Assembly (NCBI GenBank): GCA_018650465.1
Contig: JABIFY010000129.1
Span: 1 to 60,337, forward strand
DNA from: Alphaproteobacteria bacterium
Lineage (GTDB): Bacteria > Pseudomonadota > Alphaproteobacteria > UBA2966
DNA length: 60,337 nt
Direction of reading: 5' to 3'
A model generated the notes under the pieces. It was not told where the DNA came from. It saw nothing but the letters and a program-made list of their open reading frames with translations, and did no database searches. The position numbers and the translations under genes were made by a program. The stretch's first letter is position 1; every line of letters starts with the position of its first letter. This document shows, piece by piece, positions 4,927 through 13,301 of the stretch.

Positions 4927-7163
4927 CGACGCTCAAACACACCATGACGCCAACCGCTGTCATCGAGATCACAGCCGACGTCGTCGCTGAACACGGGCTC
5001 TCAGCAGACGAATATAAAATGGTCCTTGAGATCATGGGACGGGTACCGAACCTGACGGAATTGGGCATTTTCTCTGTCATGTGGTCGGAACACTGTTCCT
5101 ACAAGTCCTCCAAGAAATGGCTGAAGACTTTGCCGACAGAAGCCCCCTGGGTGATTTGTGGTCCTGGCGAAAATGCCGGAATTGTTGATATCGGCGACGG
5201 TCAAGCTGCTGTCTTCAAGATGGAAAGTCACAATCATCCGTCCTATATCGAACCCTATCAGGGTGCGGCGACCGGCGTAGGTGGCATCATGCGTGATGTT
5301 TTCACCATGGGTGCCCGCCCCATTGCCAATCTGAATGCCTTGCGTTTTGGCCAACCCGGCTTTGAGAAAACCCGCCACCTGGTTGACGGTGTGGTTGCAG
5401 GTATTGGTGGTTATGGCAACTGCATGGGCGTGCCAACGGTCGGCGGCGAAACCACATTCCATTCAAGTTATGACGGCAACATCCTGGTCAACGCCATGAC
5501 CGTCGGCCTGGCAAACACGGACAGCATCTTTTATTCCACGGCTGCGGGTATCGGCAACCCGGTCATCTATGTGGGTTCCAAAACCGGGCGTGACGGCATC
5601 CACGGGGCCACCATGGCTTCCACCGAATTCGATGAGGGCACAGAGGCCAAACGCCCGACGGTTCAGGTCGGCGACCCCTTCACCGAAAAACTGCTGCTGG
5701 AAGCCTGTCTTGAACTGATGGGCACTGACGCCATTGTTGCCATCCAGGATATGGGTGCTGCGGGTCTGACATCATCCTCATTTGAAATGGCGGGCAAAGG
5801 TGGCGTTGGCATCGAGATCAAGCTGGATCAGGTACCGCAGCGCGAAACCGGCATGACGCCCTACGAAATCATGTTGTCAGAAAGCCAGGAGCGGATGCTC
5901 ATGGTCCTGCACAAGGGCGCCGAAGACGAAGCCCGCAAGATTTTTGAGAAGTGGGAACTGGATTTTGCCGTTATTGGGCATTTGACCGAAACCGGCCGCA
6001 TGGTGTTAACCGTCGATGGGGAAACCGTCGCAGACCTGCCGATTGATCCACTGTCTGAAGCCTCGCCGGAATATGACCGGCCTTGGGTGGAAACACCCCT
6101 GCCCGCAACCCTTGATGCCGCCAACGTCGCACCGGATATTGATCCCATGCAGGCGCTGGCGAAACTGATGGCCTCACCTGATCTTTGTTCCAAACGCTGG
6201 ATCTGGGAGCAATATGATCACCTGGTCATGGGCCATACTCTGGAACGTCCGGGTGGTGATGCCGCCGTCGTGCGCATTCCCGGCCACAACAAAGCCCTGG
6301 CTGTAACCAGTGACTGCACGCCACGCTATTGTCAGGCCCACCCCAAAACCGGCGGTGCCCAGGCCGTGGCCGAAACATGGCGAAATCTGACAGCTGTCGG
6401 TGCCAAACCTTTGGCAATCACGGACTGCATGAACTTTGGCAACCCGGAGCGACCAGAGATCATGGGTCAGTTCGTCGGTGCCATTGAGGGTATGCGCGAG
6501 GCTTGCCTGGCCCTGGATTACCCCGTCGTTTCGGGCAATGTCTCCCTGTATAACGAAACAAAGGGCACGGGCGTACAGCCCACGCCGACCATCGGCGGTG
6601 TCGGGATCATTTCGGATATTGCGCACACAACCAATCTTGCCCTGAAAACGGATGGTGATTGCCTGATCGTCATTGGTGACACAAAGGGCCATCTGGGTGC
6701 GTCATTGTACGCCCGCGAAATTGCCGGCATTGAAGACGCCGACGCCGGTGCGCCGCCACCCGTTGATTTAGCAATAGAACGCCAAAACGGTGACTTTGTA
6801 CGTGGCTTGATCGAAAATGGTGAGATTAGCGCTTGTCACGATATTTCAGACGGTGGTTTGCTGGTTGCAATGGCGGATATGGCCCTTGCAGGCAATCGCG
6901 GCATCGAAATTGAAGCGCCGGACAATTTGCCACAACATGCCACGTTGTTTGGGGAAGATCAGGGGCGTTATATTGTCACTTGCTCCCCCCATTTCGCGGC
7001 ACAATTGATTAGCAAGGCTGGCAACGCCAACATTCCGGCGAAACATGTCGGAATTGTCGCTGGAAAGGCATTGAAACTGTCCGAAGATTGCGCCATATCT
7101 CTTGCAACACTGAGAGACGCGTTTGAGAACTGGCTGCCTGACTTTATGTCGCCGGACGATTAA
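4923..7163 (+). CDS. purL: Phosphoribosylformylglycinamidine synthase, PurL subunit
   Basis: PurL converts FGAR to FGAM with ATP and ammonia from PurQ. At 746 residues it is the short form that works with separate PurS and PurQ. The EHCSYKSSK motif near residues 56-64 and repeated AIRS-type ATP-binding halves ([21 protein letters not shown] and later CHDISDGGL) are clear. The start overlaps the purQ stop in ATGA; another ATG eight codons in ([10 protein letters not shown]) is a reasonable alternative. It ends the purine operon, 65 bases before bolA. Confidence 0.96.
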
Positions 7164-8818: not shown

Positions 8819-9640
8819 ATGAAAGTTATATATATCTCGGCTGGCTTGATGCTGGCCTGTTTCGGCTCGGCAGTTGCGGCCGAACCTGTTCAACTCATCG
8901 ATACCCACATTCATTACAGCCATGATGCCTGGGACATGCTGCCCCCTGCACAAGCCATCAAGGTCCTGCGCAAGGCGGGTCTGAAACAGGCTTTTGTTTC
9001 CAGCTCCAGCGATGACGGTACACAGTTGTTGTACGGCCAGGCACCAGACCTGATCGTGCCGGTTCTTCGCCCCTATCGCAAACGCGGTGAATTAAGCACC
9101 TGGTTCAAAGACCCGACCGTTGTTGATATGATCGCGGATCGCCTGGCCAAAAACACCTATGCCGGTATCGGGGAGTTTCACATATTCGGGGATGATGCCA
9201 ATCGTCCGGTGATGAAAAGTGTCGTTCAGCTGGCCAGGAAATATGGCATCTTTTTGCATGCTCATTCTGATGCGGCTGCCGTTATTAATATCTTCAAACA
9301 AAATCCCCAGGCCCGTGTCCTGTGGGCCCATTCCGGCTTTGCTGAACCTGATGAAATCGGGGAAATGCTGACCCGATTTCCAAACTTGCGCGCAGATTTG
9401 GCCTTTCGTAATGACCATGCAACATCTGACAGCGTAGACCCGGATTGGCGTCAACTTTTTCTGGCCCACCCCGATCGCATTATGATTGGCACCGACACCT
9501 ATGCGCCTGAGCGCTGGTATTACGTTGTTGAACATGCCGACTGGACACGCGCCTGGTTGAAAGACCTGCCCGGAGACCTTGCAGAAAAGATAGCCTGGAA
9601 AAATGCCCAGGCACTGGCCGACTGGGCCCTCAAAAAATGA
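8819..9640 (+). CDS. Exported amidohydrolase-superfamily protein
   Basis: A 273-residue metal-dependent hydrolase of the amidohydrolase_2 type with a signal peptide (cleavage after about AVA, residue 20), so it should act in the periplasm. The metal-site residues are all in place: HxH at 30/32, Glu119, HAH near 147-149, His171 and Asp226 in GTDTY. The fold is a TIM barrel; the substrate is unknown. AAGGGG precedes the ATG. It is the first gene of a three-gene operon and overlaps the next start by four bases (ATGA), so its role is probably linked to the downstream YtkA-like and di-haem proteins. Confidence 0.85.
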   Translation: MKVIYISAGLMLACFGSAVAAEPVQLIDTHIHYSHDAWDMLPPAQAIKVLRKAGLKQAFVSSSSDDGTQLLYGQAPDLIVPVLRPYRKRGELSTWFKDPTVVDMIADRLAKNTYAGIGEFHIFGDDANRPVMKSVVQLARKYGIFLHAHSDAAAVINIFKQNPQARVLWAHSGFAEPDEIGEMLTRFPNLRADLAFRNDHATSDSVDPDWRQLFLAHPDRIMIGTDTYAPERWYYVVEHADWTRAWLKDLPGDLAEKIAWKNAQALADWALKK

Positions 9641-10050
9641 AACTGTCCTTGATTGCGACGTTGACCCTGGGCCTTTCCTGTTGGGCATTTTCCGCCAGGT
9701 CCTGCCCGATCATTGCCACAGACCATCAACTGACGGCCACAAGCGCCAAATACAATCTGGCCATAGTGGCCGCTCCCCTTCCCATCCGTGTCGGTCAGGC
9801 ATTTTCCCTGGCCCTGATTGTGTGCGACGAACAGAACCAGGGGTTTTCTGGAATAATCAAAGCCACCGCCAGAATGCCCCTGCACAATCACGGCATGAAT
9901 TATCAACCTTCAGCGACAGCATTGGGCAAAGGAAAATTTGTCCTGGACGGGTTTTTGTTTCATATGCCGGGCCAATGGCAATTTTCCTTTGATTTGAGGG
10001 ACGGTGAATTAATGGATCGCATCCAGATCAAATACCTGCTTGAGCAATGA
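9637..10050 (+). CDS. Exported YtkA/FixH-like small protein with a His/Met motif
   Basis: The 137-residue product has an N-terminal signal peptide and one beta-sandwich domain resembling YtkA-like/FixH-like domains. MPLHNHGM (Met80, His83, His85, Met87) plus His109-Met110 resembles a copper-binding surface. Trp114 lies in the GQWQF segment near the domain end. The mature part has two cysteines (about 23 and 63) that could pair. Start and stop overlap the neighbours by four bases each. Metal binding and any partnership with the next gene's peroxidase are inference. Confidence 0.7.
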   Translation: MKLSLIATLTLGLSCWAFSARSCPIIATDHQLTATSAKYNLAIVAAPLPIRVGQAFSLALIVCDEQNQGFSGIIKATARMPLHNHGMNYQPSATALGKGKFVLDGFLFHMPGQWQFSFDLRDGELMDRIQIKYLLEQ

Positions 10051-11249
10051 ACGTTCTAAAGAGCCTGTCCATATTACTGACGACGGCCATACTGACCATG
10101 CCTGGGGTTTTGGCGGCAGAAGATTTCTCTCCGTCTGAGCGGGCCACAATCCTCTCTCTGGGTCCCTGGCCACCCGCCTTGGTTCAGGATTCAGGCAATC
10201 GGGCTTCGGGTGACCTCAAGGCTATCGAGTTTGGCAAAAAGTTATTTAACGACAAACGTTTGTCAAAAGACGATCAGGTTTCCTGTGCAGATTGTCACAA
10301 GCCAGAGCTGGCCTTTACGGACGGCATGGCCTTGAACGAGGGGTACAAAAAAATCACCCGCAATACGCCTGCCGTCACAAATTTGCGTTGGAATAACTGG
10401 TTCGGCTGGGGTGGCGAGGCTGACAGTTTATGGGCTCAAAGCATTCGACCCATCCTGTCCCGCAATGAAATGGCAGCGACCCCATCCGGTATTCGCCGGG
10501 TCGTAATCAATGATCCCGACCTTTCATGCCGGTTCAAGGCAACTTTTAACCTGGACCCCGCTGGCCTGGGAAAACATGAACTTCTGGTTCTGATTGCCAA
10601 GGCATTGGCGGCGTACCAGGAAACGCTCGTCACTGACGTCACGGCGTTTGATCACTTCAGAGATGCCCTGCTGGCTGGTGATCGCAATGCCATGTCCCGC
10701 TACCCAAGGGCAGCAAGACGTGGCCTGAAAATATTCGCAGGGTCTGGCCGCTGTACCTTTTGCCATTTTGGCCCACGCTTCAGCAACGGTGAATTCAGCA
10801 ACATTGGCGTGCCTTTTTTTGTCGCTAAAGGCAAGGTTGATCAAGGTCGATACGGCGGCATCCGCACGCTCAAAAGAAGTCCCTACAACCTGCTGGGCAA
10901 ATTCAATGATGATGGCACAGCGAAAAATACGGTCCGCACGCAACACGTCACCCAGCGGCATCGCAACTGGGGTGAATTTAAAGTCCCCTCGTTGCGCAAT
11001 GTGGCCCGGACGGCACCCTATATGCATAACGGCAGCGTCGCGACTCTGGCAGATGTCGTTGAATTTTATTCCGACCTGAATGAAGAACGCCTGCATACAG
11101 ATGGAGAAAAGATATTGCGCCCCCTCAATTTAACGGATCAGAACAAGACTGATTTGCTGGCTTTCCTTGAGACTTTGTCGTCGGGACTTGTTACCAAACC
11201 AGGTTCGCCTGATCCCTTTCGCGAGTGTTCGTCAGTTTCCAGGCAATAA
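10047..11249 (+). CDS. Periplasmic di-haem cytochrome c peroxidase / MauG family protein
   Basis: This 400-residue exported protein has a signal peptide ending near AEDFSPSE and two c-type haem sites, CADCH at residues 80-84 and CTFCH at 236-240. TAPYMHNGS near 322-330 matches the conserved region that supplies the methionine ligand (Met326) of the high-potential haem. Family members reduce peroxide or, as MauG and MbnH do, oxidise side chains of a partner protein. Its N-terminal ILSLGPWPPALVQD segment resembles a subgroup distinct from classical CcpA. It ends the operon begun by the amidohydrolase and converges on the MarR gene. The actual substrate is unknown. Confidence 0.85.
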   Translation: MNVLKSLSILLTTAILTMPGVLAAEDFSPSERATILSLGPWPPALVQDSGNRASGDLKAIEFGKKLFNDKRLSKDDQVSCADCHKPELAFTDGMALNEGYKKITRNTPAVTNLRWNNWFGWGGEADSLWAQSIRPILSRNEMAATPSGIRRVVINDPDLSCRFKATFNLDPAGLGKHELLVLIAKALAAYQETLVTDVTAFDHFRDALLAGDRNAMSRYPRAARRGLKIFAGSGRCTFCHFGPRFSNGEFSNIGVPFFVAKGKVDQGRYGGIRTLKRSPYNLLGKFNDDGTAKNTVRTQHVTQRHRNWGEFKVPSLRNVARTAPYMHNGSVATLADVVEFYSDLNEERLHTDGEKILRPLNLTDQNKTDLLAFLETLSSGLVTKPGSPDPFRECSSVSRQ

Positions 11250-11266
11250 AACTCCAGTGACACTTT

Positions 11267-11797
11267 TCAGACGTCTTCTCCACCGAGACGATCGACATTT
11301 TGCCGCATCATCCGCATGACTTTCAAAAATACTTCGAGATCATCAGGTTCAACGCCCTGAATTAGATTTCGCTCACGCTCAAGGGCGACGGCCAGAATTT
11401 TGTCATGCAATCCATAACCACGCGCATTCAGCCACCAGATTTTCCGCCGATTATCCCTGTCTGAAGCTTTGAACTCCAGGTAGCCAAGTTCCCGCAAACG
11501 GCTGAGTGATCGACTGGTTGCCGCCTTGTCGAGGGAAATCACCTCACAAATCCGCTGGGCCGGAATGCGTGGTTCAATAGCCAGCATTGAAATCACACGC
11601 CATTCAGCAATGCCAATATCGAACGCCTGTAAATATAACCGGGATGCACCACGTGACAGGGCATTGTTTATGGCTGCAAAAAAGTAGGGAATATAAGACC
11701 CAGGGTCGACGACGGCGCGCCCTTTATGATCCTTCGTCGGGCTCGACCGTCGTCCGTCAGGACACAATTCTTTCGCCAACCTGGTAGATACCGTCAT
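11267..11797 (-). CDS. MarR family transcriptional regulator
   Basis: A 176-residue winged-helix repressor-type protein. The DNA-binding domain spans roughly residues 55-125, with IAEWRVISMLA, the recognition-helix region ICEVISLDKAATSRSLSRLRELGYLE and the wing SDRDNRRKIWWLNARGYGL. MarR proteins usually bind palindromes and are released by small aromatic ligands. The ATG sits 12 bases after the P450 stop, so both are one operon; a TTG three codons earlier is an alternative start. Two matching palindromes lie upstream of the P450 gene and are the likely operators. Confidence 0.88.
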   Translation of the reverse strand: MTVSTRLAKELCPDGRRSSPTKDHKGRAVVDPGSYIPYFFAAINNALSRGASRLYLQAFDIGIAEWRVISMLAIEPRIPAQRICEVISLDKAATSRSLSRLRELGYLEFKASDRDNRRKIWWLNARGYGLHDKILAVALERERNLIQGVEPDDLEVFLKVMRMMRQNVDRLGGEDV

Positions 11798-11809
11798 CAA
11801 GTTCAAACC

Positions 11810-13048: not shown

Positions 13049-13076
13049 TGCATGAGTTGTGTTCACAACTCATGCA
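13049..13076. promoter_or_regulatory. Perfect palindromic operator O1 upstream of the P450-MarR operon
   Basis: TGCATGAGTTGTG and CACAACTCATGCA are perfect 13-base arms separated by TT, 16 bases from the P450 start codon. The shape and position are what a dimeric MarR repressor would use. Confidence 0.7.
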
Positions 13077-13089
13077 CCTTGCTTCAGCA

Positions 13090-13110
13090 CCAGTTGTGAT
13101 GTCAACTCAT
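13090..13110. promoter_or_regulatory. Second operator-like palindrome O2 with an embedded TTGACA
   Basis: AGTTG and CAACT arms around TGATGT repeat the core of O1 (AGTTGTG...CAACTCAT). The centres of O1 and O2 are 37 bases apart, about three and a half helical turns. On the minus strand the site contains a perfect TTGACA (13100-13105), which may be the -35 element, though no good -10 is seen 16-18 bases on. Confidence 0.55.
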
Positions 13111-13191: not shown

Positions 13192-13301
13192 GTGTTTCAG
13201 GTTCAACTTGAAACACAGGAATGCGGCAAGACATTGAGCGGCAAGACATTGATATGTAATGAATATATCAGGCGAGGCGTTTCGGATTACTCCGAATACG
13301 C
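13192..13301 (+). repeat. Dispersed intergenic repeat, copy A
   Basis: It begins with a hairpin (GTGTTTCA / TGAAACAC), continues through a GGCAAGACATTGA... middle part, and ends in a second hairpin (GCGTTTCGGA-TTAC-TCCGAATACGC). The same three modules recur at 22728-22826, and the last two recur inverted at 24537-24619. It lies just upstream of the YaiI gene. Confidence 0.6.

Follow-up and report, generated by a model that had tools for sequence, protein, structure and literature searches.

Results

Organization of the P450-marR operon

The window (the whole stretch of 60,337 nucleotides that was analyzed) carries, in this order on the minus strand, a pair of twin sites, a cytochrome P450 gene and a marR gene (Table 1), which agrees with the arrangement given in the preliminary description. 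The AGGAG sequence upstream of ATG 13033 makes this codon the best choice for the P450 start, and marR begins 3 bp (TTG 11806) or 12 bp (ATG 11797) beyond the P450 stop on the same strand. As judged from these gene positions, the predicted operator and marR belong to one putative transcription unit, the layout of an autoregulated repressor operon. No [2Fe-2S] ferredoxin gene lies beside the window P450. On the convergent plus strand, positions 8819-11249 encode an amidohydrolase, a 137-aa protein without Pfam match and a MauG-MbnH-like diheme enzyme, and the same cluster also adjoins marR in the genus mate L014.

Table 1. Genes and predicted regulatory features of the P450-marR operon in the window
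Feature	Position	Strand	Details
MarR-family regulator, presumed repressor of its own operon	11267..11806	-	179 aa from TTG; 176 aa from ATG 11797
CYP199-family cytochrome P450, 407 aa	11810..13033	-	Pfam p450; CYP199A2 match; 51 relatives
Shine-Dalgarno AGGAG of the P450 gene	13040..13044	-	Sequence
Perfect palindrome with promoter-proximal operator (predicted)	13049..13076	.	TGCATGAGTTGTG-TT-CACAACTCATGCA; conserved in relatives
Proximal operator core (predicted)	13056-13069		GTTGTGAACACAAC on minus strand
Expected -10 position	13077..13082	-	GCAAGG, poor match; placed by 17-nt spacer rule
Distal operator (predicted)	13087..13110	.	GTTGACA-N3-CAAC in 21/21 aligned pairs
Distal operator core (predicted)	13093-13106		GTTGACATCACAAC on minus strand
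TTGACA, -35 hexamer within the distal operator	13100..13105	-	ACA invariant at core positions 5-7

The P450 had been described as CYP199-like, and the homology searches upheld this assignment. Its best solved structure was CYP199A2 (2fr7, E 8.4e-125), with 192 of 390 aligned columns identical (49%). This identity lies above the value of at least ~40% to named CYP199 members that we used for the family, and below the ~55% or more to CYP199A members used for the subfamily; named CYP199A members share as little as 51% identity (PMC11530827). Residues equivalent to Arg92, Ser95 and Ser244 of CYP199A4 are kept, as are the equivalents of Arg84, Ser87 and Ser237 of PbdA (reference numbering from PMC11530827), which hold the substrate carboxylate in CYP199 enzymes (PMC11530827). 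The alignment also displayed conservation of the heme Cys and the Asp-Thr pair, and the hydrophobic pocket was mostly kept; conserved positions include Phe182, Phe298, Val295, Asp251 and Thr252 (CYP199A4 numbering). The window P450 thus shares its family and the carboxylate-holding Arg/Ser residues with CYP199A2 and CYP199A4 of Rhodopseudomonas and with PbdA/PbdB of Rhodococcus RHA1, but differs in its limited identity to CYP199A2 and in having Leu for Phe185 and Val for Gln203 (CYP199A4 numbering). Correspondence of this Leu to the F185L known from engineered CYP199A2 (PMC7011507) was considered and rejected after numbering, because Phe185 of CYP199A2 equals Phe182 of CYP199A4 and is conserved, and the Leu occupies CYP199A4 position 185. 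Judged from sequence, the substrate is most likely a para-substituted aromatic acid that undergoes O-demethylation or hydroxylation.

The regulator scored above the Pfam cut-offs for both MarR_2 (39 bits vs. 27) and MarR (25.5 vs. 24.6). A structure model made from 23 orthologues (pLDDT 82.8) had the MarR fold with its recognition helix; the best Foldseek match was 3nrv (E 1.2e-7, TM 0.61/0.74), and further down the list stood HosA (with 4-hydroxybenzoate), PcaV and HcaR, all of them sensors of aromatic acids. Orthologues of marR were identified in 28 loci. The recognition-helix signature DKaaxSR is common to the window MarR, its relatives and the MarRs recovered by the held-out search described below, and the MarR paralogue of the same genome reads TKQSLSR, not DKaaxSR.

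Twin sites and promoter layout

The two elements on which the preliminary description had been built, a perfect palindrome and a second copy of its core, were both recovered. The palindrome, 15 bases above the P450 start codon, consists of 13-nt arms (13049-13061 and 13064-13076) that are 100% complementary across a 2-nt gap. The other element, at 13087-13110, is a 79% identical copy over 24 nt and lies 37 bp away, start to start. No other palindrome with arms of at least 13 exists in the 60-kb window, and none arose in 20 first-order shuffles of it. The genome-wide search for further sites, as proposed earlier, returned none for the palindrome (allowing three mismatches or fewer) or for the paired GTTG-N6-CAAC core, each of which was found once in the whole 4.8-Mb genome, at this locus. 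Single sites of the form GAGTTG-N6-CAACTC (one mismatch) numbered nine vs. six in the reversed control, and two of the nine were those upstream of the P450, so that no wider regulon is claimed. Two further repeats were observed in the intergenic region that separates the operon from the divergently oriented YaiI/DUF188 gene, namely an exact tandem duplicate of GCGGCAAGACATTGA at 13223-13252 and an inverted repeat, GTGTTTCAGGTT-G-AACTTGAAACAC, at 13192-13216, which is unlike the MarR core.

The TTGACA noted earlier in the second site is present and is read on the minus strand. The distal site is predicted to be an operator half-site and the -35 box at once, because all 21 distal sites of the aligned pairs contain GTTGACA and the corresponding positions of the proximal site are variable. 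A TATATT -10 box is located 17 bp on from the -35, between the two sites, in L016, L019 and L064 (L numbers denote the loci compared), and the -10 hexamer of L014 is weak. With the spacing of these relatives, transcription in the window would begin around 13070, within the proximal site; the corresponding -10 position was absent from the output of a promoter scan of the window.

Conservation of the predicted paired operators in related operons

With one genome scanned per species, 51 relatives of the P450 were obtained. When all loci were searched for GTTG-N6-CAAC, 59 sites were found vs. 7 expected, and these sites were paired at 31-39 bp, mostly 36-38. Such a pair was present in 22 of 52 loci and in none of 520 first-order shuffles. 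The flanks of the core are asymmetric in relatives and form no long stem; the long 13-base perfect arms are peculiar to the window genome, and the GTTG-N6-CAAC core is the part conserved elsewhere.

The pair precedes the first operon gene in Rhizobiales, Rhodobacterales, Emcibacter and a Thiothrix MAG. It stands before the P450 gene in the window, L014, L016, L019, L038, L054 and L064, and before livK or its equivalent in L017, L021, L030-L033, L036, L041, L045, L046, L051 and L060. Cultured relatives that carry it include Alloyangia (L045), Salipiger (L041) and Rhizobium (L030). Since the pair tracks the front of the operon, be it P450 or livK, chance or coding constraint would not explain its placement. 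The pair of L055 is ~1.3 kb from the P450 gene, and in L040 strict pairs lie before the neighboring TRAP-transporter and ferredoxin genes, with one perfect site in the P450 promoter. In L127, which shares its contig with L040, predicted operators of the same type were observed at 1571-1622 and 6808-7078, before ferredoxin-dctPQM, P450-marR and another dctP; one MarR may coordinate the ferredoxin, the P450 and two TRAP transporters on this contig.

The usual operon of the relatives comprises livKHMGF, P450, [2Fe-2S] ferredoxin, ferredoxin reductase and marR. Some loci are shorter, with P450-ferredoxin-marR (L054) or P450-marR (window and L014); L021-L023 have P450-marR without ferredoxin behind transporter genes. 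In L019, ferredoxin-marR is divergent from the P450 and a TonB receptor, and a single site (L019:233-246) was observed there before a phthalate-dioxygenase-reductase-like gene, possibly encoding the P450 reductase of that locus. By gene order, the window operon appears to be a reduced form of livKHMGF-P450-ferredoxin-reductase-marR. The missing ferredoxin had been regarded as unusual; its absence is real, and most orthologous operons have one, but it is not unique to the window, given the ferredoxin-less P450-marR of L014 and L021-L023. By homology, no P450-type ferredoxin was detected in the window genome, the best match to the P450-linked ferredoxin of the relatives being an isc-type ferredoxin beside hscA (43%), and the ferredoxin reductase of the relatives had weak matches there (best 25% identical). 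A phthalate-dioxygenase-reductase-like protein (34%) encoded elsewhere in this genome is a lead, not evidence.

Association of the pair with marR

Of 29 loci with a marR orthologue, 20 had the strict pair, as against 2 of the 23 loci lacking one (Fisher p 1.3e-5, with loci counted irrespective of kinship). The preliminary description had made its reading depend on the palindromes recurring upstream of orthologous operons; the twin site does recur there, and it tracks marR. Nine loci have marR and no strict pair. Of these, L018, L022, L023, L024 and L043 lie on contigs that begin within the operon, and the L027 contig begins at the site; the pair of L056 contains one mismatch, and L039 and L062 each contain a single perfect site. 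In L016 and L064 the pair is present and marR is absent from the available locus sequence, and the L016 contig ends just past a divergent ferredoxin gene resembling that preceding marR in L019. Mapping the marR label onto the P450 tree gave at least six to nine changes, and the link between pair and marR thus does not represent one inherited block.

Using the pattern GTTGACA-N3-CAAC-N17-25-GTTG-N6-CAAC, a single match was obtained in each of 18 of the 26 genomes behind the loci, never two, and the reversed control never matched. Across 385 genomes of the class, the pattern was present in the window genome and its genus mate and absent from the 383 others. A held-out search of 394 genomes from the family of the L045 genome gave 11 matches, seven of which were new places, and all seven are near a MarR gene of the same type. 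In five of them the match falls between marR and a divergently oriented P450 gene whose product belongs to another family (~25% identical to the window P450), and the one such P450 that was searched matched GcoA/SyoA-type O-demethylases (E 1e-35 to 1e-47, 6g71 best). A sixth is ~3.5 kb away from a liv-marR operon; the seventh immediately precedes a gene of the syringate/vanillate O-demethylase type, and marR lies 4 kb from it. These results suggest that this MarR group is tied to the oxidation or O-demethylation of methoxylated aromatics. The divergent marR/P450 arrangements with the predicted twin operator between them were observed in Rhodobacteraceae (L120, L122, L123, L125 and L126, near 9450-9600), with flanks that are mostly GTG/CAC rather than GAG/CTC. 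At L124:9500-9550, the twin site precedes a gene matching DesA/LigM models, and a related MarR is 4 kb away.

Discussion

The twin sites are very probably the operators of the adjoining MarR, which would make the P450-marR operon autorepressed and released by an aromatic acid. With a MarR dimer bound at the distal site, the -35 box would be covered, since TTGACA is within that site, and a second dimer, ~3.5 helical turns away, would cover the transcription start and the initial transcribed region; RNA polymerase would thereby be shut out, and both P450 and marR would be kept low. An aromatic-acid ligand, most likely of the substrate class of the P450 itself, would release MarR and induce the operon, and the candidate class is a para-substituted benzoate or cinnamate, for example 4-methoxybenzoate. 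MarR as the binder, the repression, the inducer and the electron donor are what we infer here. Most likely, this is a MarR-autorepressed system that takes up a para-substituted aromatic acid and O-demethylates or hydroxylates it, cut down in the window to the P450 and its regulator.

Another regulator of the genome could bind the sites, with the neighboring marR being incidental, and the two loci that carry the pair with no marR in their available sequence (L016 and L064) would fit such a case. We consider it quite improbable, given the strong bias of the pair toward loci with marR, the held-out search that led to MarR relatives even beside a different P450 family, and the occurrence of the pair once per genome, as fits a local regulator; moreover, MarR dimers typically bind short palindromes of the size seen here. 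If MarR is accepted as the binder, it might still act as an activator, or the pair might serve a DNA loop or a cooperative tetramer instead of simple steric blocking. The fixed spacing near 37 bp and the weak -10 of the window would suit such a mode, but the location of the -35 in the distal site and of the start at the proximal site is the usual layout of repression, and the -10 boxes of some relatives (L016, L019 and L064) are good, which leaves this mode unlikely.

It is highly improbable that the 28-base palindrome is an RNA hairpin (an attenuator, a leader stem or an mRNA stabilizer) and not a protein site, even though a perfect stem lies so close to the start codon. What is conserved is just the GTTG-N6-CAAC core, around which relatives have no long stem; the start expected inside the palindrome would leave the full stem untranscribed; and the pair also stands before unrelated genes, namely livK, desA-like, ferredoxin and dctP. 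Operators of the adjoining MarR are thus the reading favored here.

MarR repressors of aromatic catabolism are already known, and the window case, well supported by comparison, appears to be an ordinary type of switch. CouR of Rhodococcus jostii (PMC4737184), PcaV, HosA and HcaR share the MarR fold and the local control of an aromatic-acid catabolic operon; their sequence identity to the window MarR is ~20%, their ligands are known, and having a P450 as target and a twin GTTGACA-type operator is a feature of the window MarR group, not of these proteins. LIV-type ABC or TRAP transporter genes occur in the orthologous operons behind the same predicted operator, a resemblance in transporter type to CouPSTU (ABC) and TarPQM (TRAP) of R. 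palustris (PMC3610893); the window operon has no transporter gene. In Bacillus subtilis, the MarR-type repressor PchR/YvmB acts on several 14-bp palindromic boxes to control both yvmC-cypX, a P450 operon, and its own gene (PMC4992311), a likeness to the window in MarR-type control of a P450 operon and the regulator gene via palindromic boxes. It differs in its P450 (pulcherriminic acid), divergent layout, link to iron and box, and is likened here by arrangement, not as an orthologue. Autoregulated repressors beside a P450 gene and relieved by a small molecule are also represented by CamR-camDCAB (P450cam) and Bm3R1 (P450BM-1/BM-3); however, CamR and Bm3R1 are TetR-family repressors, and the window regulator is a MarR.

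For lignin-derived methoxybenzoates, the CYP199 enzymes serve as model biocatalysts. Our literature search found no regulator (MarR) of any CYP199 operon and no match to the exact operator strings; the conserved twin operator together with MarR provides a directly testable regulator for a CYP199 operon and a possible biosensor part. Furthermore, the operator motif retrieves additional aromatic-oxidation operons, including those with other P450 families and a LigM-type demethylase. We tentatively propose that DKaaxSR MarRs and the twin GTTGACA-type operator might constitute a switch specialized for the O-demethylation of aromatics in Alphaproteobacteria, possibly serving unrelated demethylases, namely CYP199 P450s, GcoA/SyoA-like P450s and DesA/LigM-type enzymes.
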